DNA of 35,006 nt. It comes from a virus. The stretch is taken from positions 1 to 35,006 of the IMG/VR virus record IMGVR_UViG_3300035204_002189. One strand, written 5' to 3'. The position numbers and the translations under genes were made by a program. Below, in pieces: positions 10,881-34,882 of the stretch. The notes under the pieces are model-generated. The model was given only the letters and a program-made list of their open reading frames with translations. It searched no databases and was not told where the DNA came from. The stretch's first letter is position 1. Every line of letters starts with the position of its first letter.

Positions 10881-13800
10881 TTATTCACCAGTAAAGAAAC
10901 CAGGCCCCCTTCCCCTTGATGCGTCCACGCCGGCCGGTGGAGCGCCTGATGTTGCATCCTCTTCGGCATCGGTTCTTGTTGCCCTCTCCCTCGCATCCCT
11001 GGAGCGGCGGCGGGCTTCTTCGGCGGCCCTTTCGCGTCTGCGGTTTCGGCGCTGGGATCTACTAGGCTTGGAGCCACCAGTAAAGAAATCGCCTCCTCTT
11101 CCTCGGGATGCGTCCGCGCCGGCCGGTGGGGCGCCTGATGTTGCATCCTCTTCGGCCGCGGACGTCGTAGCTCGCTCCATTCCTCTTTCCGGTCCCCTAG
11201 CTGCCTCTTCACGAGCGCGGTCGCGCAAAGATGGTGCAGGGTCTTCCCCTAGTTTAACCTCGGCAGTTGTTTTTGCTAATTCAACAAATGAGAAGAAATC
11301 ATAAGGCCAATTGTAGCTATAAGTCGGGTTGACAAATGCACCAAGCGGCTCTAGTTCGCTTGTTTTTCCTTTCGCTAGCGAGGATTTTCTAAGTTGTTCA
11401 AAATAATCATAGGCGGCGCGTTGCTTAACTTTGAAAACCATCCATCGTGTGCCTTCGGGAATTCCTTCAGGGAACCATGAATCTTCTGTACCATAAGAGA
11501 CTTCAAATGAACTTTCTTCTTTCTCGAATCTCGAATTAAGCTGCTTCTTGCCTACGTTAGAGGTTGGCGGTAAGTTTTGCCAGATATCTGCTAGATCTTG
11601 TTCGTCAAGTTCCATTCCAAACTCAAATATAAACATCGCGAAGGGGTTTACTCTATTGGTTCGATTGTAGAAATCCATTCTTGGTGGGAATACGTAGTTC
11701 TTCATTTTCTCGGCTAGATTTCTAAAATCTGCGGGCATTTCAGAACGAGCAGAGGGAGAACCGAAAGCTGCTAGGCGGAAACTTCTTTCATCTATCTTGA
11801 AGAACTTCTTCTCATTGTCGACAACAGTATAAGGCACCGCAACTATCGCCTCTCTGACAATTGTGTTGTTCAGCTGACCAAGCTTCACAGGGAGCTTGCT
11901 GAGGCTCAGTGCGTCGGCTAGCGAGCCTGTCAAGGACCGATCGGAAGTAGGCACATCTTTTATTTGTAATTTTATACCCTGCGAGCCGGTTGGGATCCGG
12001 CCGTATTGATGCCACATTCCGACATAATAGTTGTCTGCAACCGAAGAATCATCATAAAAACCAGACCCATTTGCAGTTGTAAGGGAGTAGGCGGACGCGT
12101 CCGTTGCACTTATGGAGGAAATCAGATTTGGCAATTCTCCTGGAGCTTTAAAGCCCAAAGAGAGTTTAGGCGATGCTGCAACTTTATTACAATTAAAATC
12201 CAAAGTGAGAGCCTCGGAATATGTCGTTGAGCCTGAATCGATGATGGTGGAAAGATTAGCTATGAACTCCGAAGCGGAGGCGCCTATTCTAAATTGACCT
12301 GCTGAGTGTACGATGGGGCCGGTGTTGGCAATTACCGTAAAGGGAACTCCAATTTGGCCATCACCTAAAGTTATAACATCACCAACAGTAGCTTTGCTAT
12401 GATCCAAGATGTTGAAGATGTGTGCTGAGGCCGAATTCGCGACGTCGATCGATGCGCTCCTGTGTGAAAAGTCCAAAATAGGTGTTTCAAATTTTGGCTG
12501 TATAGAAATAGCAAACTCCGGAGCGGCAGTGGCTCCTTCGGCGCGCGAGTTATCCACTCCTGTTTTAACTGTGCGATATTCAATAGTATCAGTTAATTTT
12601 GAGCGCGCATCAATAGCATACGAGACGCCAGGAGCCACGATACTATCGATAAAGTAAGACTGTGTTATCGTGTTTAATATCTCGTCGACAGTAGGTCTTT
12701 CTTTCGTTGGTCGGAAGGTTAATCTGACCCCTTCCTCCACTCCGAAAGCCTTGATGTCGTAGGGGGGAAGATAGGGCAAGAAGGAAGCGGAATTCCCAAT
12801 TCCGGAGCGGTTTGAGACCGGGGGCCCAAACGACCGATCACCATCATACATGCTCAAACCATCCTCAAATAACCTTATGTCCATTCGATACTCTTTACTG
12901 GTATCAAATCTAAATGCATTTTCTCCTGACGAAACTATAGACGAAACAGAATTATTCTTTAAAAATAAATTCATAGTCTCAGCAAGAAAGTTATTAACAG
13001 CATAGCGATATTTATCCGAGCCGGCAGAACTAGAATCATAACTAGCAGTACTATAAAGTATTGCATTTTCATCAGGCTCTGCATCGATTATTGTAGTAAT
13101 ATAAGAAAGGGGATCTGTTACGGATTCGAATGGTAATCTGACGCTGTAACTAGCCGAAATTCTTGCTCCAAATCGATCCCAGTTACTATTGCCGCCGGCG
13201 TTGTTAATATACGTGCCTGTAACGTCCGCTATGGAATCAAAGCTGCTCGTAAAGATGGGGTATCCCAAAGCCACTCCGGATTTAATGGTATTACACAAAA
13301 TCCCCGGGGCGAAAAATGGTATAATCGCAGTTCTAAGAGAACCCCCTTCATTAATACCATTTGGTCTTAAGGGGTGGCCCGACCCGGTTATTGTTATAAT
13401 ATCACCATAAGACTGACTAAATAAAGCTCCTATTTGATCAACTCTCTGTGCCGGATAAAAACCTTCATATGGTAAAAATCTCTTAAGAGCATTACAGGAA
13501 AGCTTTAAAGTACCTAGACTTTCTATATCAGCTTCGGAATGTTTATTCTCAATAATATTAAAATATTTTAAGAAATCTGAATTGACAAATTCAGTATAAA
13601 AGGATTCATTTGTATCATTCGGATAAAACGCACCGGTGATATCAAAGGTTGGATTCAATACCGTATTTGAACCCGAAGGTCCATCAATAATATCTGCAAT
13701 AGCCTCACTTATTCTAAACTCTGGAATCACAGAATATTCTTTTCCGGCAGTTCGCATGTCTAAAACATAATCATTATAGTTTTTATAATAGAACGGCTCC

Positions 13801-20561: not shown

Positions 20562-21976
20562 TAGTCTTCAACTCTAAATCTGAAACCTTCTGGGTATTCA
20601 CTATAATTAGATCCTTCTTTAATAATGAACTTGAATTCATATGCATACCCGGCCTCCAGACTAGAGAAGTCAAAATCAAAATAAGAGCCTGATGCATCAT
20701 ATGACAGAAGAGTGTATGCCACACTGCCGGTACCGTAATCGATCACATCAGTATTGTCTACTTTTCTCACTACTTTATAATACATATTATCAACAAAATA
20801 ATTTTGGATAGTATTATTTGCTACAGTATAAAGCGTTGGCGACCAATTTCGCTTACGAGTAAACAATCTTACTCTAGTACTTGTCTCCGATCGACTATAT
20901 TTATCTTCTAAGTTCGTAACGCTAAGAACAAGAGGCTCTTTTTTAGCAGTTGGTTGGGCTGTATTTGTCTTCACACTCAGTGTTCCAGTATAAAAGCAAG
21001 TACCTAAAGTCGAATCATACCACCGATCGTACACCGTTGAGGCAGTCGTATTGAGATCGAAAGAAGCAGAATATATCCCAGTGGCAGTATAGCCGCCGGT
21101 TATAGGGTAATCCACTGAGACAGATGAGGAAAGGTTGATCCCTTCGGCTACGGAGTCGAAGATCTGAACATATATAGCACCGGTATCGGGACCGGGAATG
21201 TTTTGTAGGGTTCCCCTGAAAGAGTTGTAAAGATATACCTCTTGCACATTATCTGTGCTGAGCAGTGAAGAAGAGGCATAAAAATCGCCGCGTTGATCTT
21301 TTACCGAAGAGTCCCAGCGGGCTTCGATGGTCGGCCTCTTGAAGAAGTATTCTGATGAGCGCGCAAAAAACTTTTTGGTATAGTAAGTTTGATCGTCAGT
21401 CTCGGCAGAACCCGAAAAAGATATACCCCATCCGTAATTGGCTGTAGTGCCAGCGATCCATGCCTCAACTAAATCTGTGGCATCGACATTAATGTTTTCT
21501 AGGCCAGTCTCAAGGGACGAACTTAGGGGGTAGGTGCTTAGGTAGTCGCCCCCCTCAGCGGTCCACGCGGCGGTGGTTGAAGCTGAGACCCAGTTTGACG
21601 CGCCCAGATCTTTGTATTCGTCCATATCGAGGCCGCGGCCTTCGATCCAAGACTGGGATATGGGCTGTAGAAGAAGGGTAGAGCCGGTGGGCACTGTGAG
21701 CGGGGTTCGCGCATTATATAAGTTCAAATAAAAGCTAACAGATCCAGAAGCAGGAATATCGCCGGCCGTTCTTTTGGTTGTTATATCATCTGTATCAAAC
21801 TGAATTAAAATTCTACTTTTTTCTATGGAGGAAGTTGTTATTGATCCGTACACCTTAAAGACTTCAAGTGCATCGGCTAGACCCATGTTAGATCCGGTAG
21901 CTCTTGTGGCGCCGCCAAATTTTGACGCGTCGGTTATTGTATTATCTTTTACTGCAAAAAACTTTTTAAAAGCCAT
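20561..21976 (-). CDS. Virion structural protein (471 aa) with DNRLRE/CBM-like beta domain
   Basis: The first ~250 residues follow the plan of DNRLRE (CBM-like) jelly rolls: an opening strand set (ATGSNMGLADALEVFKVYGS), RILIQFDTDDI, a strand set with SVSFYLNLYNA, then LLQPISQSWIEGRG, a Trp-rich stretch (NWVSAST, AAWTAEGGDY), INVDATDLVEAWIAGT and a closing RPTIEARWD. The second half has several short beta repeats and ends EYPEGFRFRVED. There is no signal peptide. It lies between the gp6-like wedge gene and the giant LamG-bearing gene, overlapping each by one base (TAATG), with GGAG about 10 nt before its ATG. The context suggests a link from baseplate to the adhesive periphery; a carbohydrate-binding function is possible but unproven. 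Confidence 0.72.
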   Translation of the reverse strand: MAFKKFFAVKDNTITDASKFGGATRATGSNMGLADALEVFKVYGSITTSSIEKSRILIQFDTDDITTKRTAGDIPASGSVSFYLNLYNARTPLTVPTGSTLLLQPISQSWIEGRGLDMDEYKDLGASNWVSASTTAAWTAEGGDYLSTYPLSSSLETGLENINVDATDLVEAWIAGTTANYGWGISFSGSAETDDQTYYTKKFFARSSEYFFKRPTIEARWDSSVKDQRGDFYASSSLLSTDNVQEVYLYNSFRGTLQNIPGPDTGAIYVQIFDSVAEGINLSSSVSVDYPITGGYTATGIYSASFDLNTTASTVYDRWYDSTLGTCFYTGTLSVKTNTAQPTAKKEPLVLSVTNLEDKYSRSETSTRVRLFTRKRNWSPTLYTVANNTIQNYFVDNMYYKVVRKVDNTDVIDYGTGSVAYTLLSYDASGSYFDFDFSSLEAGYAYEFKFIIKEGSNYSEYPEGFRFRVED

Positions 21977-23790
21977 TATCTCATTTCTCCATTAATGTCC
22001 TTGAAAGGAAACTTGACTTCCCAAATTACATTCTTTGGTATAAAGATTTTTCGACCATCAGCAGACATGTTATTATCGATATCAAAAGCCGTATTGGAAT
22101 AATTTGCGCCGGTTTTCTGGTCGACAGATAAAGTTAGCACATCTGCAACTCCGTCTGCTTCATTAACAGCATTTGTTAATTTAGTAATAAACAAAGGATC
22201 TCCAATATTAGCTGGATTTTCAGAAATATACTTCCTTAACGCCCTCTCCGCGCGAGTTAGTGTGGCGGCCTTATCCATCCCCTCCTCTGCTATCGCGGTA
22301 AAATCAACTTTAATATTAATTATTCGTGCATCAAAGATGTCAATAGAATCACTCAACAACTTAAATCTAGAAAGCCAAGTTTTCAAATTGTTCTTCAAAG
22401 AAGAAGTAGCAGTTGCAAAATTACCATTCCCATCCTCAGCTAAAACATATACATTGATGTTGTTTTTAAGGCTTCGGACGTCCTTATAGGCAGCTGCTCT
22501 TTTGATTCCCCCAAATGAAGAGGGCATCGTGTAACAGAGATTCTTATAATCATTTGCAGTTACGGCGCGATTTTGAGCAAAATAACTATTTGATGCTAGA
22601 ATTTTTACTTCATCTGCAGTCAGCCTAGACATGTCACCAATAATGGGTTCATCATTTGTAACTTCCAAAGAAGCAAGAACCTGTCTTTTTAAAGTCATGG
22701 ATGTTGCGGCATCTGTAAATTTCGTTTTTGCACTTGTAATAGTAGTCAATGAATTAGTAGGAATATTAACATTAGTGTCAACATTAGTGCGTACGCTGAA
22801 TGTAAGAGTTGTATTTGCGGGAGCAATCCCAAACTTACCACTCTTGAGAAGGACGTTGGGGTCAAAGGTCACATCTGAAACATAACTCTTCCCGAATAGA
22901 TCCATTGTAACCCTACTGGGTAGCACATTCTTTTCGGCCGTGTTTAGATCCACCTCGGATCCATAACCAAATTGTAGTACCATTCGGTTTGCTTCACGGG
23001 TAGTTTGAAATCTTCTCGGTGTTGATTTTGGCTGCATCAAAAATCTTACAAACTCTCGATCGGCGCCGTTATTTGGTATTTGGCGATAGACTACATCTTG
23101 TGCCAAGTTGGGAACTTCAAAATACTCACTACCATTCGAATCCGTTACTGAAATAATTTCTACTATACTATTATCGTTCAAAATTACTTTTTGGAATGGT
23201 TTATAAGCTCCAACAGCGCGGGTTAAAACGTTAAGCCTTCCGGATATTACTCGGCCGAATGCTTTAATCGCATAGTGGGTGGGCTGGCCGGTGGAGGCAT
23301 CCCGGGTGGCGACCACAACTTCGTTTCTCGTATCTGCGAAATCAACATCACTGACCAAGATAAAAGGGACGCCCCGCCTGGAGTTCAGGCGAGTTCCTTT
23401 TCCTAGAATTGGGGCATAATTTAAATTAGGCTTTGCTCCAGATTCAAAGCTAACTGATGTAGAGGCCGGGACGAGGGCATAAAAGGTAGCTAAGCCCGTC
23501 GATGTTTTATTGGGATTATATTTATAACCCATTTGTTGGGCGATTCGAATTACATTCTCGAATTCGCTAGCAGTATTCAAAAAGCTTTCATTAACTTGAT
23601 AGTCTAAGTAAAATGATAAAACATCCCCGACATACGCAACTGTATCCAACAGCATAGAACCGAAGCCGGCTTCTTGGAAGTCCTTAAAGGTATCGGGATA
23701 ATATCTTTTGGTGAAAGTAACGAGATCTCTTTTTATAGAATCAAAGTCTCGTGATGTGTATCTAATAGGTGGCTTTGTTATTTGTGCCAT
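21976..23790 (-). CDS. Baseplate wedge protein, T4 gp6-like / baseplate J family
   Basis: At 604 residues, it is close to T4 gp6 (660). The N-terminus carries the typical wedge signature: YTSRDFDSIKRDL, KDFQEAGFGSMLLDTVAYVG, LSFYLDYQVNESFL, then QQMGYKYNP. A baseplate-J-like region follows with strands around residues 300-400 (SYFAQNRAVTANDY at ~410), and the C-terminus returns to an alpha/beta fold (TLTRAERALRKYI, DPLFITKLTNAV). In contractile-tail phages this protein forms the dimeric ring of the wedges that holds the baseplate together and drives its change of shape. Its ATG abuts the stop of the gp25-like gene (TAA-ATG), with AGAGGAG just upstream, so the two are translationally linked. 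The family assignment is strong. Confidence 0.9.
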   Translation of the reverse strand: MAQITKPPIRYTSRDFDSIKRDLVTFTKRYYPDTFKDFQEAGFGSMLLDTVAYVGDVLSFYLDYQVNESFLNTASEFENVIRIAQQMGYKYNPNKTSTGLATFYALVPASTSVSFESGAKPNLNYAPILGKGTRLNSRRGVPFILVSDVDFADTRNEVVVATRDASTGQPTHYAIKAFGRVISGRLNVLTRAVGAYKPFQKVILNDNSIVEIISVTDSNGSEYFEVPNLAQDVVYRQIPNNGADREFVRFLMQPKSTPRRFQTTREANRMVLQFGYGSEVDLNTAEKNVLPSRVTMDLFGKSYVSDVTFDPNVLLKSGKFGIAPANTTLTFSVRTNVDTNVNIPTNSLTTITSAKTKFTDAATSMTLKRQVLASLEVTNDEPIIGDMSRLTADEVKILASNSYFAQNRAVTANDYKNLCYTMPSSFGGIKRAAAYKDVRSLKNNINVYVLAEDGNGNFATATSSLKNNLKTWLSRFKLLSDSIDIFDARIINIKVDFTAIAEEGMDKAATLTRAERALRKYISENPANIGDPLFITKLTNAVNEADGVADVLTLSVDQKTGANYSNTAFDIDNNMSADGRKIFIPKNVIWEVKFPFKDINGEMR

Positions 23791-24354
23791 TTAGAATGCT
23801 CCTCTGCTAATACTGAAATTGTCTTTTTCTAATGTGGGATAGTCAAAAATTGCTTGCAAGTTAAGTGGTTTTATAAAATAACTAATAGATGCTCTTAAAA
23901 CGTTTAAATTATTTTGGTCTTCTTCTCCAAATTCAATGCTTAAAATATTTATATAAGGAAGATATTTTATAGACTGAGATTTTATGCGCCCTTTTAATTG
24001 AGATGGTGTCACTTGTGTACTATTTTCAAACAAGAACTTTCGGAGGCCGACTCCAAATTCAGGATCCATCATCTTCTCACCCGGTGCGGTTAACATCAGG
24101 TTTTTAAAATTTTGTTTCACTAAGTTCTGGTATCCCCTAACCATGTCGTAACCATCAGATGATATGTTCGAACTAATTTTCTCTATTGGTAATTTAACAC
24201 TAAGGGCTGGGGAACGCGCTATGAGTGCATCCGTTGAGGGTTCATATAGATCTTCGTTGACTAGTCTAGAGCTATCTGAAATGCTATCATAAACTTGATC
24301 GTTTTCGAAAATATCAAAATCGATATTTGTATTTTTCTTACTTGTTGATGACAT
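23791..24354 (-). CDS. Baseplate wedge protein, gp25-like
   Basis: The central motif NLMLTAPGEKMMDPEFGVGL followed by RKFLFEN (residues ~85-115) is the hallmark of the gpW/gp25 family. This family contributes the wedge core and touches the sheath at the start of contraction. The protein has 187 residues against 132 in T4 gp25; the extra length is an N-terminal stretch of ~60 residues, rich in Asp, Ser and Asn. The gene overlaps the end of the 1889-aa gene by 17 bp and abuts the gp6-like gene, reproducing the gp25-gp6 pairing common to contractile systems. Despite the historical lysozyme-like label, no hydrolase activity is implied. Confidence 0.9.
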   Translation of the reverse strand: MSSTSKKNTNIDFDIFENDQVYDSISDSSRLVNEDLYEPSTDALIARSPALSVKLPIEKISSNISSDGYDMVRGYQNLVKQNFKNLMLTAPGEKMMDPEFGVGLRKFLFENSTQVTPSQLKGRIKSQSIKYLPYINILSIEFGEEDQNNLNVLRASISYFIKPLNLQAIFDYPTLEKDNFSISRGAF

Positions 24355-27300
24355 TTAGGTATCCCTTTACAAGTTCTCTGCTAGTTTCTACGTATCCGGT
24401 GGGTGCTCTTGAAATAATCCCGTCGCCTTTGGTGTTATCTATCCACTTAAATTGTCTACTAAAATAAATAGTTACTGCGTTGATAATGTCGCTAAACGGA
24501 AAACAAAGCTGGAAGAAAGTTATAAGTTCGGGATTTTGTGCTAGTTCAGACTTAATAATCCCTTCTGGCGAATTTGTGCTCATAAACTTATTAATAAAAT
24601 TATTATGAATATTTTCATAAATTTCAGAAAAGGAGAGATCGTTCTTTGATAAAAATGAACTTTGGTGTGAAATTATCTTGACCAAAGAAACCACACCCAC
24701 GACACCTTCGCCGCGAATTTCATCGGAGGGAAGAAGATAAAAATGTCCAGATTCTGAATTAAATATCTTTCTGTTATCCTCTGATAGAGCTAAAAGTTGG
24801 CGGCGGCGGGCGCCTGGGAATGGTGGAACTTCTACTGATAAAACAGTTGTAGCATAGATTTCATAAACTAATCTAATATTAAAATGAGCAAATAAGAAAT
24901 CCTCAACACTTAACGTTTCTGCCTCAGTATCAGCTTGGGCATATAAACCTTTTAGAAATGCCATAGTGCCGCGGCGCGAATCGAACACATCGGCGGCGCG
25001 CAGCCTTAAAGATGATTCACCTCTCAGGAAGTCTAGGATCAAGGGTCGTTGGCGCGATTCTATACTAAAAAATGAATTGAAAAGAGGGTTATCCTCGATA
25101 TCCTCTACAACATTTTGAATATTTGACTCACTTTTTAATGTTAATTCGAAAAGTACTGTAGATGATAAGAAAGACAGATCTTCTCTTGATCCTTGGCCGA
25201 TTTGAAGCCGCCCAAAAGAATCCTCACTTAGTTCATTAGAAAATGCTGATGGGGCTTCGAAGGGAACTATGAGATTGGAATTTGTTATAATATTAGAAAT
25301 ATTTTGTTTCGCAGCCAGATCTTCGGCAGATAGTGCTGAATTGAAAGTTTGGCTTATGTTTTCAACAGCTTTGTTGGCCGCGGCACAAAAAGCATCTGTA
25401 GGGAACATATTTCTACCATACGTAGAGAGAAAACGTTCACTTTTTATTTTTGATATTTCATATAAAATATAACTTATCATCCCCGAAGATGTTAATTCTA
25501 CGGCTTCGCGAGCATTTTCTAGACGAACAACAAAAACTTCATTATCTAAAAGAGTATTAATTCTAGTCTTAAGGACCTCTAAAAAGGTTCCCCCATAATA
25601 TTTATATATTATATCGTTTACGGTAAAAGGAGTAGTTGGTGAAATAGTATCCCCACCTCTCCCCACAGTTGTACTGGAATATGCTAGAAGAGATGGTAAG
25701 TCTGATAAGATCACGGCCTCTATAGCTGATATAAATGCTTCCTCCAGCGTTATTAACTCTGCGTCACTCAGAGATAACAATACTTTAGAGTAATCGCGCG
25801 TGTTTTCTATGAATCTCCGATAAGTATTTTCTTGTTTGAAGTCTCCATTTAGATAATTATTAACAATTTCCTCTTTTCTCTTCCCTGGAAAGATGTCAAA
25901 TTTTATCTCATCGCCTTCTCGTGGAGTCATCGAGTAAAAAGCCGACATTGATAATGTCTTTGCAAACTCCAAAAATGAGCCCGGGCGGCGCTGGCGTTTA
26001 GGATTGATTAATAGTTTTATGTTCTTTTTCTCTGGATCTCTTTCTAAGTCGATTAAAGAGGAAACATGAGCCAAAACAGAGTTCATCAACTCTTCATAGT
26101 GTGTCTCCATCACCACAAACTCTTCTTCAAGCTCAAAATTCTCTCTAAATTGTTGATTTATAAATATTTTAGCCGTCTCAAAATTTCCGATCGATGTTGC
26201 TGTGTGTTGAAGATCTGTAAAAAAGATATTAGACTGCTCACTAATTAGAGATGCTTTGTCGTAAGAGAAACTAGTATTAGAAATAAATTTGTCATTGGAG
26301 TCCACAACGGTAGAAAATGTTGCGCCGGCGCCCTCTAAGGATGTACTAATCAGGGACTCGCTGCCGGTAGCTTCAAAACCAAACATGCTTGCTTTTTCTT
26401 GGAGTTCTATATAGTCTTTTGCGTTTTCAGAAAGATCGCCGGAAAGTAAGTTGTTAGAGTTTGCCATTAAATTTAAATTCGAATTAATGATATTCAAATT
26501 CATATTCCCAAGCTCTTCCTGATCTCTCCCAACGGCAAATTGAGGTACGTCTTTTATTTTTATCGTAATAATCTGATTATCTTTTACTAATTGTGGAATG
26601 ATATTAGAAGGGTGCATTAAGTTAGGAATACTATCTTCTATTTCTGCTGCCAAGGATTCTGGATCAGCTAAATAACCAATAATTTTAAGAGAATCTTCGA
26701 GTTGTTGTCGTCTATTGTTCTCTAGAACCTCTTTAAGCTCCTGAACTAAAGCAGGGTTATCTTCTACACATAGATTCTCAAAAATATCTTCAACATTCGG
26801 ATCCTGACAAAGTTCACTAACCGTGCCTCCCAATAGGGGTTCGAAAGCCAGTAGGGAGGATTCAATCTCACCGATATCGATAATCTGACCAATCGCAGAT
26901 CCAACATCTGCTAGAGAATCTGGATCATCTGCGATCTGCGCTGATATATCAGGATTATCAGCGAAGAAGGTTTGAGCGCGTAGAAGCGTTGTTTCTGTAA
27001 GATTTCCATTTAGAAAATCAAAAAAGTCCTCAGCTGGTAGCAGCCCAGAACAAGATGCTCCCACAAAATTCATGATGCTAGATGCGGTCCTTGCCGGGAC
27101 TGCAGCGCCGGCGGCCCGGGCTATAGCGGTGCCTACCTGGGCACCGCCAAATGGCTCATAACACAGCAACTCCTCGGCGGTGAGGCCGGGGCCACCGACT
27201 CCATTAACCTTGTTGCAGAGAGTATTCCTAAGAGCGTCTTTGAAATCTTTCAAAAAATTACCCATTTTACAAATATCAAAATCAAATGTAATATCTGGAA

Positions 27301-30007
27301 TAAGGGATAAGAGAAACTGTATTATTTTCTTAAGAATAAATAATAACGCTGTGAAAATTGCTTTTAAAATTGCTTCAAATATAAATCTAAAAATATCTAA
27401 TAAATTAAGATGGGGTAAGCGGATCCTAGGGGGGAAGTTAAATTCAATCCCTGTCCTACCCGAACCATCCCCAGGAATAGAGACGACTGGCAACTGGCAA
27501 AAGTCTATATTGTTTATATCCCAGGTATTAATCCATTTTGACCAATCTTCAAAATAAGCCAAAATATCTCCTATTATGGTATTATCAATACCCAAATCAA
27601 AGATAACAAACTCCAATATTCTCTCTAACTGATCTCCATTTTCTTGAGTGTTACAATTTAGAGCGTAAATAATAACCTCTGTTAAAAGTTCTCGTTGTTC
27701 TTCCTCCAGGGCGCCCCTTATTACGCTTTCATAATACCTTCTACTAATTTCATATTCATCTCTATTGGTTACATACCATGGAGTTCCTGGAGAAGTATCG
27801 GGATCGGGGTGTCGGTCTTGTATAAATTGTCTATACCGAGATTGTACTGTGGAATCAAGATCTATGCCCGGTCGACGCAGGTCGTCAGTGGCGGACGTCG
27901 ACATGCCGTGTTCACGGAAGACCTCCATGACATCCCTGGCATGTTGTCGTTCATCTAAGACCTCCTGGCGTCCTAGGATTCGCGACGCTCGGCGGGCGGA
28001 TCGTTCGCGGTCTCGGGCTTCTCGCTCCTCGGTTTCCTCAAGCTGCGATGCGGCAGATTCCATGTGTTGAGCATACTGTCTTGCATCTCGCTGAGCTTGT
28101 TGCAGGAGATCGCGGACTCCCTCAGAATTTTCTTCCAACTGGCGCCTTTGACGTCGCAGCAGACTTCGTAATTCGGCTTTTGATAAATTTTGTATCTCTC
28201 TTCCGGTCGACGGGTCGAGTGCGGAGGAAAGTGGTGTATTGCCGGCAAAGGTGGATTCTTCCAAAAGAAAGGCATTGATTTGTGCTGCGTTTCTAAGTTC
28301 TGAAAGCTCCTGATCTTGACGTGTATTTCTTCTCTCTTCCCTCTCCTCAATGGTTAGCCACTGTCGCCTTTCTTCGTCGTCAGACTGAATCAAGGCGTCT
28401 TCTATGGTGGATAAACCAGTGTCTATTAGTGGGACTGGTCGTATAATCTGTGGTTCTGAATTGATTTTGATGAAGCCAAATTCAATGGCCAACTCTTTTA
28501 ATTTTGCAGGGGGAATTGTTAGAAAAATAGCTTTTAGTGTTTGATTATCGTTAAACTTTTTAGATATCGTCTTTATTGTGAGGCGCCTTACATAATCTTC
28601 ATCTAAAACTCCATCGACACCAAATTGTGAGGCTGCTGTGGCTGCAGCAATTGATAAAAGTTGTTGCCACGTAATTTTCCTGCTTTGCGCAACAATCTTG
28701 TCTACGGCATCGCTAGCCACTGCCCGGGGGTTGATTTCATCGAAGATCTCTTCAAACTCCCCTCTTATACTCTGTCCTCCTTCAACGCTAGTTTTTCTCA
28801 ACGCCCTACCGACTACTTCTAGATATCTGCTATCTTTTAATAGCTCGGTCTCTCTTTCTACCAACTCCAAACTCTTAATAGGGCCGGATTCATAAATGGC
28901 AATAAGTTCTTGCATGTCCTTGGACGGATTAGCAGAATCTCTTATGGAATCTTGCAATGCATCTATAATAATGGCGCCGGAATCTCTGAGAAAAGAAGAT
29001 GAAGTGGCATTTGAAGCACATGTGTTTCTTTCAATAGTCATGCCTGGGGCCAAAAACATTTCTGCGGCTTCTAGATAATTGGTTTTCCCCATTGCTGTAT
29101 TTGCTAGCGTTCTATTGAAAAGAGGCGCCAGCTCACTCACATAATAGTTTGCTCGTCGGTCACTAAATAATGGATAGATTCTATTTTTAACATCTTGTAG
29201 AGTATGCACAAAAACTATTCTTGTGGCCCCAGTCTTTGTGTTGGCAAGTTCTATTACGGAAATGAAATCAAAAGTCCTATCAATTGCGCCTCGGGAGGAT
29301 GGCGGGGCTTGTGGTGTGGGGAGGCGCCCGAAAGTTATCTTGATGGTCTCCTCCCTCTTCTTTGCGCCCCCGGGGTTTGTAGGGTCGTTAACAATATTTT
29401 TTATTTGATCCAAAAGGTTTGTAATTTTTTTCTTTCTAGCAAACTTTCGAAACTTTATACCCCTCACTATATGATTCTTTTTTGGAGTCTGCAAGAAATA
29501 AGAAAATGTTTTAAAGTACTGTTGGATAAACGCTCCTTTCTTTCTCATTCTCGGCAAATCACATATTTCAACAAACCGCGAACCAAATAATTCTGGCCTT
29601 AGATCACCATCCGGGATTTGAACAGCTTCTGTGGCAGAACCAACAAAAAGAAAGAATACTTTTTCAAATATAAGATGCTCACAGGCATCTCCGGAAGATT
29701 GTTCAAAGTGGAATATCTCTGCGGTTATTCTTTCGCCGTCGCTAGTTTCTTCAAAACCATCAACCATTTCATTGGTTGAAAAAAACTCTTCTTTGTCAAA
29801 TTCCTCAAAAGAATTCAAATTATAAAAATTAAAGAATTTATTGGCTGCAATGCGAGAAGCTTCATTACGAAGCTGATCCATATTATCTTGTAAAGTAGCT
29901 ACATCTTTTCTAAGTTGTATTAAAATAGCCTGCGCTTCGATGGCGGTGCCATCGATAATGATTTGTACTTTCTCTATACTATCTTTTTGTAATTCTTCCA
30001 ACAGCAT
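24338..30007 (-). CDS. Very large baseplate or tail structural protein (1889 aa)
   Basis: I do not recognise the family with certainty. The N-terminal ~60 residues form a helix with coiled-coil pattern. Residues ~550-700 are a highly charged coiled-coil region rich in Arg, Glu, Gln and Ala (LLRRQRRQLEENSEGVRDLL, EREARDRERSARRASR). A strongly hydrophobic stretch lies at ~866-904 (LLDIFRFIFEAILKAIFTAL, LFILKKIIQFLLSLIPDI), surrounded by several Cys residues (~820-1100). The C-terminal half is mainly helical, acidic and Asn-rich. It lies directly upstream of gp25-like and gp6-like genes and after the spike-like gene, so a baseplate or hub function is likely. A tape-measure role is another possibility because of length, coiled coil and hydrophobic helices. 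It begins one base after the spike gene's stop, with AAGG upstream. Confidence 0.7.
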   Translation of the reverse strand: MLLEELQKDSIEKVQIIIDGTAIEAQAILIQLRKDVATLQDNMDQLRNEASRIAANKFFNFYNLNSFEEFDKEEFFSTNEMVDGFEETSDGERITAEIFHFEQSSGDACEHLIFEKVFFLFVGSATEAVQIPDGDLRPELFGSRFVEICDLPRMRKKGAFIQQYFKTFSYFLQTPKKNHIVRGIKFRKFARKKKITNLLDQIKNIVNDPTNPGGAKKREETIKITFGRLPTPQAPPSSRGAIDRTFDFISVIELANTKTGATRIVFVHTLQDVKNRIYPLFSDRRANYYVSELAPLFNRTLANTAMGKTNYLEAAEMFLAPGMTIERNTCASNATSSSFLRDSGAIIIDALQDSIRDSANPSKDMQELIAIYESGPIKSLELVERETELLKDSRYLEVVGRALRKTSVEGGQSIRGEFEEIFDEINPRAVASDAVDKIVAQSRKITWQQLLSIAAATAASQFGVDGVLDEDYVRRLTIKTISKKFNDNQTLKAIFLTIPPAKLKELAIEFGFIKINSEPQIIRPVPLIDTGLSTIEDALIQSDDEERRQWLTIEEREERRNTRQDQELSELRNAAQINAFLLEESTFAGNTPLSSALDPSTGREIQNLSKAELRSLLRRQRRQLEENSEGVRDLLQQAQRDARQYAQHMESAASQLEETEEREARDRERSARRASRILGRQEVLDERQHARDVMEVFREHGMSTSATDDLRRPGIDLDSTVQSRYRQFIQDRHPDPDTSPGTPWYVTNRDEYEISRRYYESVIRGALEEEQRELLTEVIIYALNCNTQENGDQLERILEFVIFDLGIDNTIIGDILAYFEDWSKWINTWDINNIDFCQLPVVSIPGDGSGRTGIEFNFPPRIRLPHLNLLDIFRFIFEAILKAIFTALLFILKKIIQFLLSLIPDITFDFDICKMGNFLKDFKDALRNTLCNKVNGVGGPGLTAEELLCYEPFGGAQVGTAIARAAGAAVPARTASSIMNFVGASCSGLLPAEDFFDFLNGNLTETTLLRAQTFFADNPDISAQIADDPDSLADVGSAIGQIIDIGEIESSLLAFEPLLGGTVSELCQDPNVEDIFENLCVEDNPALVQELKEVLENNRRQQLEDSLKIIGYLADPESLAAEIEDSIPNLMHPSNIIPQLVKDNQIITIKIKDVPQFAVGRDQEELGNMNLNIINSNLNLMANSNNLLSGDLSENAKDYIELQEKASMFGFEATGSESLISTSLEGAGATFSTVVDSNDKFISNTSFSYDKASLISEQSNIFFTDLQHTATSIGNFETAKIFINQQFRENFELEEEFVVMETHYEELMNSVLAHVSSLIDLERDPEKKNIKLLINPKRQRRPGSFLEFAKTLSMSAFYSMTPREGDEIKFDIFPGKRKEEIVNNYLNGDFKQENTYRRFIENTRDYSKVLLSLSDAELITLEEAFISAIEAVILSDLPSLLAYSSTTVGRGGDTISPTTPFTVNDIIYKYYGGTFLEVLKTRINTLLDNEVFVVRLENAREAVELTSSGMISYILYEISKIKSERFLSTYGRNMFPTDAFCAAANKAVENISQTFNSALSAEDLAAKQNISNIITNSNLIVPFEAPSAFSNELSEDSFGRLQIGQGSREDLSFLSSTVLFELTLKSESNIQNVVEDIEDNPLFNSFFSIESRQRPLILDFLRGESSLRLRAADVFDSRRGTMAFLKGLYAQADTEAETLSVEDFLFAHFNIRLVYEIYATTVLSVEVPPFPGARRRQLLALSEDNRKIFNSESGHFYLLPSDEIRGEGVVGVVSLVKIISHQSSFLSKNDLSFSEIYENIHNNFINKFMSTNSPEGIIKSELAQNPELITFFQLCFPFSDIINAVTIYFSRQFKWIDNTKGDGIISRAPTGYVETSRELVKGYLNVINK
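24457..24474 (-). promoter_or_regulatory. Second exact copy of the AT-rich motif, upstream of the gp25-like gene
   Basis: The 18 bases TACTAAAATAAATAGTTA match 3477-3494 exactly and lie about 105 nt before the gp25-like start, inside the 3' end of the 1889-aa gene. There they encode part of VTIYFSR. The position would suit an internal promoter or processing site for the wedge genes, but a chance AT-rich match cannot be excluded. Confidence 0.25.
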
Positions 30008-30008
30008 A

Positions 30009-30908
30009 TTAGTTAACCTTGTTGTGCTCTGACAGGATGTAGTTCGTTCCTAGTGAAGAGAGAAAATTGAATTGTGTGCTGGCCAGATTGAGTTTTTGAG
30101 TTATTGTTTTGCTCATTTGCGAAATATTAGACTGCAATTTCAGGATATAAGGTCCCGGGATGACCGGGGATGGGGCCCCGGGAGGGTGGACGTGCGCTAA
30201 CATCGCGGCTTCAAACAGGTTCATCGAGGCGACTAGGGAAGTAACTACCCCGTTTATATCATTTATCTGACTTATTATATCTTTCAAACACCCTCTAAGA
30301 TTCTCTCCTTTGACCATAGACTGCAAATCTGAATCGTCATTACCTGCAATCAACTCTATACCGGAGACCTTCGGAATTATTTTATTATTAGTGTTTCTAC
30401 TATTAACCCTTGTTAACAACTTAATGCCACCCTCATCTCCAATAATCCTGATAGCATCAGCTTTTAAACCAATAGCAGAAGTATTAATAGCACTTCCATT
30501 TGATCCATCAACTATCTTAAAATTAATGTCAACATCTGTTTTTTCCGAAATGTATATGCGCGCTGCGTCGGTTGTAAATGAAGGATCCACGAACGTTCGG
30601 GCGCCCGGGGAGCCGCCGATGGCGCGGCGGCCTACAACCAAATCGATTGAGTGAGCACCAATAGCTCCCAAGCCGCCATATCCACCCATTCTCGAACCTG
30701 GTCTGTCTCTCCCTAAGACGATGTAAGAGTTAGCATTGGAAATGACACTTTCTGCGTCGGCAGCAATAAACTCCGGAATGTATTCCAGCTTTTCCGTAAG
30801 ACCCACGCCAGTACCGGCGGACCTTGGGTTTTTAAAAACATCCTTTTCTAACTCCTTATTTTGTTCATCTGTTAAATTCGGATTATAATTTAGTTTAATT
30901 TTTCCCAT
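30009..30908 (-). CDS. Spike-like baseplate protein (299 aa) with HxH motif
   Basis: Residues ~45-185 are a run of short beta strands spaced like a beta-helix or beta-prism: SYIVLGRDRPGS, AHSIDLVVGRR, AARIYISEKTDVDINF, IGLKADAIRIIGDEGGIKLL, VSGIELIAGNDDS. I recall closely related phrases in baseplate proteins of marine myoviruses. Near residue 240, AHVHPPGAPSPVIPG resembles the His-x-His plus Pro/Gly segment of phage central-spike proteins (P2 gpV and Mu gp45 types), in which such histidines help bind a metal ion. A C-terminal helical part follows. The gene lies within the baseplate section, overlapping the preceding small gene by one base. A central spike or spike-adaptor role is inferred; it could also be a different trimeric baseplate fibre. 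Confidence 0.65.
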   Translation of the reverse strand: MGKIKLNYNPNLTDEQNKELEKDVFKNPRSAGTGVGLTEKLEYIPEFIAADAESVISNANSYIVLGRDRPGSRMGGYGGLGAIGAHSIDLVVGRRAIGGSPGARTFVDPSFTTDAARIYISEKTDVDINFKIVDGSNGSAINTSAIGLKADAIRIIGDEGGIKLLTRVNSRNTNNKIIPKVSGIELIAGNDDSDLQSMVKGENLRGCLKDIISQINDINGVVTSLVASMNLFEAAMLAHVHPPGAPSPVIPGPYILKLQSNISQMSKTITQKLNLASTQFNFLSSLGTNYILSEHNKVN

Positions 30909-31220: not shown

Positions 31221-32621
31221 CTAAGTATGTTGGCGCCAACTTGGCCCAAAGGCGCCGGCTCTATCAGCGCTCACTCGTGCAAAACTTCCATATAACCAGC
31301 CGCGGCGCTTGGTTTGCGAGGGGGTGTTAATGTCAAAATGAATCGTATTCAAGCCGTATCCAAGACCTAAAGCATCAAAATTTTCTGTACAGTTATATAA
31401 GGAATACATCAGTTGCTGGGCGCGTTTACTGGCGTTTGCATCAGTAAAATCTATATCCACTCCAGTCCCATATATGTGAGCGCTGTTGCCCGATCCTCCC
31501 ACGGATCGATTGTAAGCAACCGGGCGCCACCAATTCCTAAGAGTAATAGGTGATGCTACCTCATCACGCAAAAGTTGCATTATCACCACCAAGGGAATAA
31601 GACGTCCCCAAAACTCCCTATCTGGGAGAGCGTGCAAGCGTCCTCCATGGTCCACGACAGTTCCTGAAATCTGTTCCCCGCTTGAAAGATGTTGGCCCGG
31701 GCGATAAAGACCTCGGGCGGTGCCCTGATGGTTGAAACGAGTAATTTGTTCGGGAGTAAAGTTTGGTTCTGATTCTGCAGCAATTCTTACAACAGTGTTG
31801 AAGAAACGAATAAAATCATCATAAGTATTATTGTATGATGCTCTTGAGGTTGTCTGAGATGCTACATTAATTTTTTCTATAGCGTCCGTAAAGAACCTGA
31901 TATTATTACCATCTGTACAAAGCGCAGTAGTGTCACTGGTAATTCGTGGGGCGCCAATATATGCCGTGCTCCCTCCTGCACTTCCGCGGGCGATGACCGC
32001 GTTGGGTGCTTCTGCAAAGGGTGCAGCTGGGGCCATCCAAAAAAGTTGTGATGGATCGGGCTCGACAGCAATTGGCTCTAAACTATTTCTTATAGAAACG
32101 CTTAGAACTTTTGCGCCATTATAGGAATTCTGATATGGTAAATAAATTCTAACAATATCGCCGGCTCCTACAGGTCCAAATTCGGCGGCGGGGACTTGAG
32201 AAATCGCCCTTCCTTTACTTGATATAATTTTTGCCCGTGTAGTTGGATCGCTAACAGAATCGGAATCCGGTATAAATGAATCAATTTCCATTTTCAGAAA
32301 AAAAAGAAAATATTCCGGTATTATTCTAGTGCTCTCTTCTCCTACTTCTTCTGGCATTGTTGTATTTGAATTAATATATAACTCGGGATAAAGATTGGCT
32401 GCAGGTATACCGGGCTGCACAGCTAGTACCTGCGCTTCAAATATATTCCCTTGTCTCTTGAGGGAGTTTCTAGTATATCTATTAGCTATAGTGGATAGAG
32501 TTTTTCGTACGGCATTATTGCCGCGTCCCTGCCGTGGATCAATAAATCTAGTTCTAATCTCGGATGATCTAAAATCATTCAAAGAACCAAAAAACCTAGA
32601 TGGTCTTTTAGGCAATGGCAT
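31221..32621 (-). CDS. Virion-associated peptidase with M15 domain on a shared N-terminal anchor
   Basis: Residues 1-192 are nearly the same as the start of the GH25 protein encoded next upstream (about 85% identical by eye), up to EPDPSQ; then the sequences diverge abruptly. The C-terminal ~130 residues fit the M15 zinc peptidase family. SAHIYGTGVDIDF supplies the first His (382) and Asp (389) ligands and NTIHFDI the last His (428). WWRPVAYN and NALGLGYG-like segments (here FDALGLGYGL) agree with the fold. Such enzymes cut peptide bonds in peptidoglycan stems (D,D- or L,D-specificity not decided). The residues between ~195 and 330 are unassigned. Position among baseplate genes points to a virion-borne enzyme that opens the wall during infection. 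AGGAG at 32633-32629 gives a good ribosome-binding site. Confidence 0.85.
   Translation of the reverse strand: MPLPKRPSRFFGSLNDFRSSEIRTRFIDPRQGRGNNAVRKTLSTIANRYTRNSLKRQGNIFEAQVLAVQPGIPAANLYPELYINSNTTMPEEVGEESTRIIPEYFLFFLKMEIDSFIPDSDSVSDPTTRAKIISSKGRAISQVPAAEFGPVGAGDIVRIYLPYQNSYNGAKVLSVSIRNSLEPIAVEPDPSQLFWMAPAAPFAEAPNAVIARGSAGGSTAYIGAPRITSDTTALCTDGNNIRFFTDAIEKINVASQTTSRASYNNTYDDFIRFFNTVVRIAAESEPNFTPEQITRFNHQGTARGLYRPGQHLSSGEQISGTVVDHGGRLHALPDREFWGRLIPLVVIMQLLRDEVASPITLRNWWRPVAYNRSVGGSGNSAHIYGTGVDIDFTDANASKRAQQLMYSLYNCTENFDALGLGYGLNTIHFDINTPSQTKRRGWLYGSFARVSADRAGAFGPSWRQHT
32046..32621 (-). repeat. Duplicated anchor module, copy 2 (peptidase gene)
   Basis: This encodes the N-terminal ~192 residues common to the two hydrolase genes; the partner copy is at 33543-34118. 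DNA similarity is clear but with many third-position changes, so the duplication is not very recent. Confidence 0.85.
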
Positions 32622-32666
32622 ATTGCTGCTCCTGCAAAGTTAATATTTTTTCTAAATTTCTCATTC

Positions 32667-34118
32667 TTAGGTGGCTGCTGGGATAACTCTAGCAACACTA
32701 CGGCTGTTTAGGGTAAACAAACTGGGCTTGGCAACATTTATATCTATTTGATTTGGTGTGCCTCGTAGGCGCCCCGTTCCTGTAAATTGATAAATTGTCC
32801 AATCGGCATCTTTACCAGTTTTCGCCGGGCCGGCGTCTTCCCATGGAGGCGCCACTCTATTTGGGCCTTCAATAAAGTTTCTCCTAGACTGCACTGGGTA
32901 TCGAGGTTGCCATAAAGGATATTGAAGAAACTCATCTTTTTTGGCAGCAGGGAGGCTGTTAACGGCTACTATGTTTCTCATAAAATTAGATCCCACATAA
33001 ATTATAGGTGGCCCCGGGGAGGCATCCTTGATCCTGGACAGGAAATGTAACATCCAGTCAGCCATTTGTGGCCGCGTGAGGTGTGTAGCGTCTTTCTCCA
33101 TATCTAAAACCAGCGGCAAGGTCGGGGTGGGCAGACTTTCAATTGTTGATAAGAAAAAAGCAACTTCGCCTTCTGCATCAACCATGGGATCGCGAGAGCC
33201 CAAATCGGGGCGTGCGAAATGATAATAGCTAAATCTTACATTGTTTGAAACTAATTGGGCAGCATGGCCTTCGACACTCGCGTCCATCAGAGTAGCTCCC
33301 TCTGTTGCTTTTATGATAGCCCACCGGATTCCTTCTTCTTTTAGGATATCCCAATTTAAAGTTTCAGGAGGTTGGTAATTGGAAACATCAACACCGGGAA
33401 GGCGAGTGGCGCGCACCGTGGGAGAGAAAACTGTAATTTCTTCGGGGGTTGTTGCGGCGTGTGATGTGGCGCGGGCCGGATTGTAGCCTGCGACGAATCG
33501 ATTCCCTAGGGCGAGCGCTGCCCCCAGCGGAGTACCAAAAAATTGTGATGGATCAGGTTCAACAACAATTGGTTCTAAGTTATTTCTTACTGACACCCCT
33601 AAAACTTTCGCTCCGTTATAAGAGTTTTGATATGGTAAATAAACTTTAACAATGTCACCGACGCCTACGGGTCCAAATTCGGCCGCGGGGTGTTCGGAAA
33701 TTGCTCTACCTTTACTTGAAATAATTTTTGCTCTAGTATTTGGATCACTAACAGAATCAGAATCCGGTATAAAAGAGTCTAGCTCCATCTGCAAGAAAAA
33801 AAGAAAATATTCCGGTATTATTCGTGTTGACTCTTCGCCGGGAATTTCTGGCATTGTCGTGTTTGAATTAGCGTGCAGCTCCGGGTAAAGATTGGCTGCA
33901 GGTATACCGGGTTGTACAGCTAAGACTTCTGCCTCGAAGATGTTCCCCTGTCTTTCTAAGGAGTCCCGGGTATATCGAGTTGCGATAGTCGCCAAAGTGT
34001 CTCTTACCGCCGAATTACCTCTACCCTGGCGTGGGTCGATGAACCGAGTACGGATCTCCGATGACCGAAAGTCGTTCAAAGATCCGAAAAAGGTTGATGG
34101 TCTTTTAGGCAACGGCAT
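32667..34118 (-). CDS. Virion-associated muramidase with GH25 domain on a shared N-terminal anchor
   Basis: Residues 1-192 are the module shared with the M15 protein. Residues ~240-470 are a GH25 (Chalaropsis-type) lysozyme. PGVDVSNYQ has Asp at 244, AIIKATEG follows, then YYHFARP at 298, PLVLDMEKD with the catalytic Asp339/Glu341 pair, an IIYVGSNFM strand and the closing WTIYQFTGTG and QIDINV. GH25 enzymes split the glycan strand of peptidoglycan between MurNAc and GlcNAc. All expected catalytic residues are visible, so it is probably active. No signal peptide exists; the shared anchor and baseplate context indicate a virion component, not a classical endolysin, though a lysis role cannot be excluded. 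AGGAGA at 34130-34125 lies six bases before the ATG. Confidence 0.88.
   Translation of the reverse strand: MPLPKRPSTFFGSLNDFRSSEIRTRFIDPRQGRGNSAVRDTLATIATRYTRDSLERQGNIFEAEVLAVQPGIPAANLYPELHANSNTTMPEIPGEESTRIIPEYFLFFLQMELDSFIPDSDSVSDPNTRAKIISSKGRAISEHPAAEFGPVGVGDIVKVYLPYQNSYNGAKVLGVSVRNNLEPIVVEPDPSQFFGTPLGAALALGNRFVAGYNPARATSHAATTPEEITVFSPTVRATRLPGVDVSNYQPPETLNWDILKEEGIRWAIIKATEGATLMDASVEGHAAQLVSNNVRFSYYHFARPDLGSRDPMVDAEGEVAFFLSTIESLPTPTLPLVLDMEKDATHLTRPQMADWMLHFLSRIKDASPGPPIIYVGSNFMRNIVAVNSLPAAKKDEFLQYPLWQPRYPVQSRRNFIEGPNRVAPPWEDAGPAKTGKDADWTIYQFTGTGRLRGTPNQIDINVAKPSLFTLNSRSVARVIPAAT
33543..34118 (-). repeat. Duplicated anchor module, copy 1 (muramidase gene)
   Basis: This is the first copy, in transcription order, of the ~192-residue module. 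Its conserved part includes FEAEVLAVQPG, IPEYFLFFL and GDIVKVYLPYQNSYNGAKVL. The last phrase recalls an OB-fold strand pair as in gp5-type hubs; that comparison is tentative. Confidence 0.85.
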
Positions 34119-34150: not shown

Positions 34151-34882
34151 CTAAATTTCACCGTTGTCCCACTCATTTCTTACAACACGATACTTTTTGC
34201 GTATCTTTGTGAGAGAATTTGTTATTTGCTTGGTATTTAATCCAGTTATTTCACGCAGATAAACATAAATCGCTTTTTTATTGAATATTTCTATATCATC
34301 GGATGTCTCAAACAATACTTTTATTGCTTTTAAAACTTTTTGATCATTTTCTTTCTCGGAAGAAGCCTGCCACCATTCTATTTCTTCAAATAGAAAACTA
34401 AAGAACTGTTTTTTCTCTACCTCTTCCAAATAAGTGTTCTCATAAACTAGCTGTGTTTCTATTATAGAAGAGGATAGGCCGTCATAATCTACTTCTTTTT
34501 TGAGTTTCTTTTTGTTCTTCTTGGTCTCGGCAATAAACCAGTTTTTCGTGATGACCGAAAAATAAGTGAATGCTTTGTGTCCTTTATCGGGATCGAACTT
34601 GTTCAGGATCGTAACAAGAAATACTTTGCAGTCTTCTTTTAGAACTTCTGAATTGGGAAGATTATTGAACTTATAGGTGTATACAATCTTATTAACCATT
34701 TCATTGAAAGCGGGTTGAATAAGGGAAGCGTAAAGTTCCTGTCGTGTATCGCGGTTATCAGTTCTGCAGTATTTAAGGATTGCGTCCTCGTGTACCTGCG
34801 AAAAATAAATGTTTTTTCTCTTCGGGTACTTGCTGCGCCGCCTCCTCCGCTTCTTCTTCGGTGTCGTAGTCGTCAAGTTCAT
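34151..34882 (-). CDS. Late-transcription sigma factor, T4 gp55-like
   Basis: The 243-residue protein has a very basic N-terminus (PKKKRRRRRSKYPKRKNIYF), then helices (QVHEDAILKYC). A sigma region-2-like segment follows at residues 96-118 (KFDPDKGHKAFTYFSVITKN, WFI), which I recall as the signature of gp55-type sigma factors in marine myoviruses. A lysine-rich stretch and a possible C-terminal helix-turn-helix (YLREITGLNTKQITNSLTKI) complete it. T4 gp55 has 185 residues. These factors redirect host RNA polymerase to late promoters, usually with a sliding clamp and a co-activator, neither of which lies here. The ATG at 34882 follows AGGAAGGAGAAG, a strong purine-rich site inside the upstream gene, which it overlaps by 110 nt. 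No later Met lies before the conserved part. Confidence 0.85.
   Translation of the reverse strand: MNLTTTTPKKKRRRRRSKYPKRKNIYFSQVHEDAILKYCRTDNRDTRQELYASLIQPAFNEMVNKIVYTYKFNNLPNSEVLKEDCKVFLVTILNKFDPDKGHKAFTYFSVITKNWFIAETKKNKKKLKKEVDYDGLSSSIIETQLVYENTYLEEVEKKQFFSFLFEEIEWWQASSEKENDQKVLKAIKVLFETSDDIEIFNKKAIYVYLREITGLNTKQITNSLTKIRKKYRVVRNEWDNGEI

Follow-up and report, generated by a model that had tools for sequence, protein, structure and literature searches.

Twin phage genes with one anchor module and different cell-wall hydrolase domains suggest a gp5*-like docking unit with exchangeable enzymes

In phage T4, the OB-fold of gp5 is the adapter between gp27 and the needle and is followed by a lysozyme domain; cleavage ahead of the needle divides the protein into gp5* (OB-fold plus lysozyme) and gp5C (PMC3004832). 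For the VgrG spikes of type VI secretion, a heterotrimer has been proposed, and the same study concludes that what is needed is a diversity of effectors rather than the heterotrimer as such (PMC8668125). Phage endolysins and tailspikes show extensive mosaicism through domain shuffling (PMC10684548), and domain shuffling on a kept anchor is already well known in phages. HydH5 is a single virion-associated peptidoglycan hydrolase, a structural enzyme that assists entry (PMC3150257).

The window analyzed here is the whole of a 35-kb viral fragment from a metagenome (IMG/VR record IMGVR_UViG_3300035204_002189, 35,006 nucleotides). Two of its genes lie consecutively on the same strand, 45 nt apart, each with a GGAG-type ribosome-binding site ahead of it (Table 1). 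Their residues 1–192 are 88% identical without gaps (77% at the DNA level), and the tblastn match of one module to the other (E 1.3e-112) excludes chance as the source of the similarity. The similarity ends at EPDPSQ, which is residue 192 in both proteins; past this point, the following 60 codons are 31% identical in an ungapped DNA comparison, and no match was obtained between the two C-terminal domains, or heads (best E 0.08). An earlier note on this DNA had described about 192 common N-terminal residues, ~85% identical by eye, with an abrupt divergence just after EPDPSQ; the computed identity is slightly higher, and the break lies where it had been placed.

The same note had assigned a GH25 and an M15 head and had named six residues in them, and both assignments are borne out by Pfam, with all six residues in place. 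The head of gene 1 passes the curated cutoff of PF01183 (94.4 bits against 27, E 1.3e-26), and its Asp244, Asp339, and Glu341 fall in GxDVS and LDxE motifs that align to the muramidase 1jfx. The head of gene 2 passes that of PF08291 (33.4 bits against 23.2, E 5.5e-8) and has the Zn ligands of the His-x6-Asp ... His type; two of these, His382 and Asp389, can be aligned with the Zn-site motif of 1lbu, an M15 peptidase, and the third, His428, lies just downstream of the Pfam core. Both chains stop after the enzyme domain, and a C-terminal beta-helical needle is absent from them.

Table 1. Features of the window, with related slot proteins and their assigned heads
Feature	Position in window	Strand	Basis or remarks
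Gene 1: anchor module and GH25 muramidase, 483 aa	32667..34118	(-)	ORF and Pfam
Gene 1 anchor module, residues 1-192; predicted OB-fold core ~58-180	33543..34118	(-)	
GH25 catalytic domain, residues 243-453; Asp244, Asp339, Glu341	32760..33392	(-)	Pfam
Gene 2: anchor module and M15 peptidase, 466 aa	31221..32621	(-)	ORF and Pfam
Gene 2 anchor module, residues 1-192; 88% identical to gene 1 module	32046..32621	(-)	
Peptidase_M15_3 Pfam core, residues 343-405; Zn-ligand-like His382, Asp389	31407..31595	(-)	Pfam
Late sigma factor-like gene, upstream slot edge in relatives	34151..34882	(-)	PHROG 234, E 7e-6
Small conserved gene adjoining the slot, about 100 aa	30908..31210	(-)	conserved in relatives
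Spike/hub-like gene, 299 aa, conserved in >40 relatives	30009..30908	(-)	
Very long structural ORF, 1889 aa; next after the spike gene in all close relatives	24338..30007	(-)	
gp25-like baseplate wedge protein	23791..24354	(-)	
gp6-like baseplate wedge protein	21976..23790	(-)	
Sister-phage slot proteins right after the sigma gene			L086/L169/L170 506 aa; L087/L088 780 aa; L089 830 aa
Assigned tandem heads			L114 lysozyme + M23; L147 M15 + lysozyme-like; L094 GDSL + endolysin-like
Assigned tandem heads			L097 two lysozyme-like + GDSL; L121 M23 + GDSL + bare; L217 GDSL + muramidase + amidase

The place of the twin genes, hereafter the slot, belongs to a gene order (sigma gene, small gene, hub/spike gene, gp25, gp6) that the window has in common with Microcystis phage Mel-JY01, Flavobacterium phage immuto, and an uncultured 484-kb phage, to all three of which the gp6 homologue of the window is ~30% identical. 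In Mel-JY01, an enzyme of the GH19 type adjoins the hub gene, without the module; at the same place in phage immuto, no enzyme was recognizable. The 299-aa spike gene aligns weakly to the C-terminal part of the hub protein of the relatives and is without their N-terminal region. Could the OB domain of the relatives' hub have been moved onto the hydrolase? A profile comparison of the hub N-terminal region of cultured relatives with the module gave no homology, which leaves this idea unsupported. The ORF of the small gene as listed begins at a TTG (31249), and the gene probably starts at an in-frame ATG (31210), matching homologues that start MKNLDETL. The divergent late-sigma-like gene lies directly upstream of the slot clade-wide and is a handy marker of the locus. 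In the window and in L086, L087, L088, L089, L169, and L170, the sigma gene and the small gene flank the hydrolase gene, whereas in most other relatives its neighbors are the small gene and the spike gene; these differing positions indicate that the slot has shifted by one gene.

The comparison with T4 gp5 shows both likenesses and differences. As in gp5, a (predicted) OB-fold at the N-terminus is followed by a peptidoglycan hydrolase, and, by gene order, the genes lie in a baseplate cluster with gp25 and gp6 homologues and a spike gene. The two products of gp5 cleavage, OB-fold plus lysozyme and needle, correspond to two separate genes in the window. In contrast to gp5, the module has no match to Pfam Gp5_OB (PF06714), even at E <= 10; the heads in the window are of the GH25 and M15 types instead of the lysozyme domain that gp5 has mid-chain (some relatives do have lysozyme heads); and the needle is on another gene and the hydrolase has two paralogues, not one. 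The OB-fold itself comes from an AF2 model of the module (mean pLDDT 70, ~85 over residues 60–180), the core of which is a five-stranded barrel of the OB type, for which structural alignment returned OB-fold proteins. The structural matches include baseplate proteins of phages Mu (9ki1_V, Z 7.0) and P1 (9vzk_q, Z 6.9), but ribosomal and translation proteins head the list, OB proteins in general reach the same scores, and Z 7–8 is a common background. By sequence, the module matched no solved structure, and the beta part of the spike model had no convincing match in the PDB. A virion-docking role of the module is nevertheless consistent with the predicted fold together with the baseplate gene neighborhood.

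We consider it fairly probable, from these observations and from the exchange of heads described below, that the module is a docking unit resembling gp5*, with an exchangeable enzyme behind it and the needle on a separate gene. The 192-residue module, an N-terminal arm and an OB-fold barrel, would be the docking unit of a tail-tip wall hydrolase in an uncultured clade of T4-related phages and would act as the OB domain plus lysozyme of T4 gp5* does, the adjacent spike ORF taking the part of gp5C. Three such units would sit on the baseplate hub, each holding an enzyme beside the needle, and tail contraction would carry the docked enzymes into the periplasm, where they would open the peptidoglycan. 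The enzyme would be replaceable because docking depends on the module alone, and replacement would occur by recombination between the module and the next gene. Gene duplication would then place two or three different enzymes on equivalent sites; in the phage of the window, the GH25 copy would cut the glycan strand and the M15 copy the stem peptide.

The low divergence of the two modules at the protein level stands beside a high synonymous divergence. We obtained a dN/dS of ~0.05 (0.09/1.86) for the modules of the window, ~0.05 (0.07/1.56) for those of L114, and ~0.19 for the orthologous modules of L086 and L088, all of these being rough values, with the same-genome dS near saturation. The low same-genome values would fit two copies that are held to one binding site or partner. 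The earlier note had also suggested gene conversion, to be looked for in the synonymous divergence along the module. This divergence is high and even (34 of the 73 four-fold sites differ, evenly spread), with no conversion tract, and we therefore reject recent conversion between the modules of the window.

Relatives of the module are found in uncultured phages. The module is absent from 50,697 sequenced phage records, in which the spike is likewise unmatched, indicating that the clade has gone unnoticed among cultured phages; the module profile, run against 85,000 prokaryote genomes, gave no relative, and neither the single module nor the single gp6 returned anything when IMG/VR was searched directly. 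Relatives were reached through alignments of gp6, sigma, and spike proteins built from the window and three cultured or assembled phages. With the relatives of the sigma gene as bait, we found the module at the same place in four IMG/VR records, and a module-profile scan added two more; all six have C-termini unlike those of the window. The records L086 and L088 are ~91% identical in DNA through the sigma gene and on to codon 192, where the module ends, do not align across the enzyme, and are 92% identical again exactly from the next start codon (for the slot segment alone, the module-weighted value is 79%, with 98% past the break). By sequence comparison, this difference is a replacement of the catalytic domain, and its boundary coincides with that in the window. 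The heads of L086, L088, and L089 received no assignment in searches of Pfam, PHROGs, NCBIfam, and the PDB; by eye, that of L088 has an M15-like H..G.AAD...H.D pattern and that of L086 a lysozyme-like ESGG...GLGQ pattern.

Across the wider clade, one to three proteins of 190–1325 aa occupy the slot, which is bounded by the small gene and the spike gene; most of the surveyed loci have a single one. In a profile comparison, the window module matched, among others, a group of 20 members through their N-terminal modules (probability 93%, E 3e-7). One module profile, iterated within the slot proteins only and less certain for distant members than for close ones, matches 112 of the 137 non-redundant slot proteins, at a median position of residues 16–195. 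Against 4,425 ORFs of the loci, the profile matched 59 slot proteins and 19 others, and all 19 are close to the 5′ side of gp6 loci, the expected position of the slot; reversed-sequence decoys gave no match. The remainders behind the module range from 6 to 1106 aa, and five proteins of 190–210 aa are bare modules (L120:10938-11507, L214, L227, L234, and L237). In L194 and L213, the module-like part and the lysozyme- or transglycosylase-like part are separate adjoining genes, with no fusion.

Behind this diverged module family, which extends across ~100 loci, at least 15 catalytic families are represented among the slot proteins, a list pooled over these proteins rather than paired module by module, with GH25 added from the window. 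The Pfam families include VanY, M15_2, M15_3, M15_4, M23, M74, Amidase_2, CHAP, Phage_lysozyme, Phage_lysozyme2, the PF11860 muramidase, GH46, GH19, SLT, DUF2272, and GDSL. Modules of different groups can bear similar heads (53% identity for L126/L130, 59% for L143/L146, and 42% for L090/L147), indicating that heads move between modules. The earlier note had seen in the twin genes a cassette arrangement in which the catalytic head can be exchanged and the dock is kept; a search for other catalytic partners found them in the sister phages, at the same locus and with a clean swap at codon 192, and in the wider family, and the idea is accordingly well supported. Base composition gave only a weak sign of foreign heads, the median G+C difference being 0.9 points (104 proteins).

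Shared modules with unrelated heads in tandem recur in eight other lineages (L094, L097, L114, L118, L121, L147, L217, and L038), four of which have sets of three proteins (L097, L118, L121 with one of them bare, and L217). The closest mirror of the window is L114, with modules that are 91% identical over 183 aa and then a tail-lysozyme head in one protein and an M23 head in the other. The sets usually pair cutters of glycan, peptide, or ester bonds (Table 1). Twin modules cluster by genome in the window, L094, L097, L114, and L118, although not in L147, which points either to repeated duplication or to a common constraint on the copies of one genome.

Could two or three differently armed proteins be loaded together on one particle? 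A mixed hub, in which near-identical modules would hold two to three wall-cutting activities (glycan, peptide, and ester) side by side, with heads taken from a common pool to which the release enzymes of the phages themselves also belong, is a reading that we put forward tentatively. Its closest precedent, by analogy, would be the proposed heterotrimeric VgrG spike. Alternatively, each particle or subpopulation might carry one enzyme, and duplication would then widen the range of wall types that can be breached without making a two-cut drill. Different single heads at the same place in close relatives, as if matched to hosts, and the single slot protein at most loci speak for such alternative use. 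Against it, the tandem sets mostly mix bond types (L217, L114, and L147), a better fit to joint action, although L097, with two lysozyme-type heads, tempers this argument; furthermore, both copies in the window have ribosome-binding sites within the same gene cluster, and a search for a switching device found no inverted repeats near the genes. We regard alternative use as rather unlikely.

The catalytic domains are common to endolysin families, and one or both proteins might be release enzymes encoded among the tail genes, with a module that targets or regulates rather than docks. In the sister phages, a free-standing M15 protein of 231 aa with a hydrophobic N-terminus is indeed similar to the M15 head of the window (33–35% over 118 aa), as is the endolysin of Microcystis phage LMM01. 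However, the gene sits in a baseplate cluster and has an anchor module, and candidate release enzymes are encoded separately, the free M15 protein elsewhere in the genomes of the sister phages, besides their slot protein, and free amidases in other phages; a bare module in the same slot would make no sense for an endolysin, and spike and baseplate genes flank the slot in essentially all relatives. These points make the endolysin reading quite improbable. Under the docking reading, the likeness of the M15 head to the free M15 protein, and of the amidase head of a slot protein to a free amidase (39%), suggests that endolysins may be one source of heads. The remaining explanation, that the record joins two strain variants of one gene, gains something from the origin of the sequence as a metagenome fragment, for which a second copy of the phage was looked for and not found. 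We judge such an assembly artefact to be highly improbable, as 23% of the bases differ between the modules and the synonymous sites are saturated, and as tandem arrays occur in the eight other lineages, two of them each in two separate records of identical sequence.

Set beside the other known systems, the docking unit that we favor resembles evolved VgrG proteins (PMC8668125) in its common base, its exchangeable C-terminal domains, and its several paralogues per genome with different extensions or none. Evolved VgrG is, however, a fused gp27-gp5 that includes the needle, whereas the base in the window is a phage module of ~190 residues and the heads are wall hydrolases; tests of the window proteins for the VgrG family, or for fused gp27-like and gp5-like domains, found none, only the 192-residue module standing before the enzyme. 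Shuffled endolysins and tailspikes likewise keep one part and exchange a catalytic or receptor domain for one without homology, but here the kept part is a predicted baseplate-docking OB module, what is exchanged is a wall hydrolase, and single genomes have paralogous arrays with different heads. The likeness to HydH5 is that of a structural hydrolase that would assist entry, and for hydrolases of this type, the literature searched holds no description of a common anchor with differently armed paralogues. Within the searches made, what is new is the combination of a baseplate OB-type anchor, many wall-hydrolase families, and repeated paralogous sets.

The locus suggests that this clade refits its tail-tip drill by swapping the cutting tool. 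The module would be a natural tool-holder at the phage tail tip, with one docking part, many heads, and paralogous sets that mix bond specificities. Such a series could be used to ask which wall chemistry each set of enzymes opens, and it bears on the question of heteromeric phage hubs, by analogy with the proposal for the spikes of type VI secretion. It also allows the exchange of domains between virion hydrolases and release enzymes to be studied.

Elsewhere in the window, the C-terminal tail (10886-11178) of a 3226-aa ORF contains a low-complexity stretch (ERAT..AEEDATSGAPPAG..ASRGRG..FFTG) in two copies of ~104 nt (81%); no tail of this kind was seen in the ORFs of the relatives, and within the window a 1047-aa ORF ends in a similar one. 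At 306-2483, a 382-aa ORF and a 340-aa ORF have a C-terminal domain of ~100 residues in common, of which two to four copies occur in the same part of the genomes of the relatives. Here too, an attachment domain may be shared by proteins whose partner parts vary.
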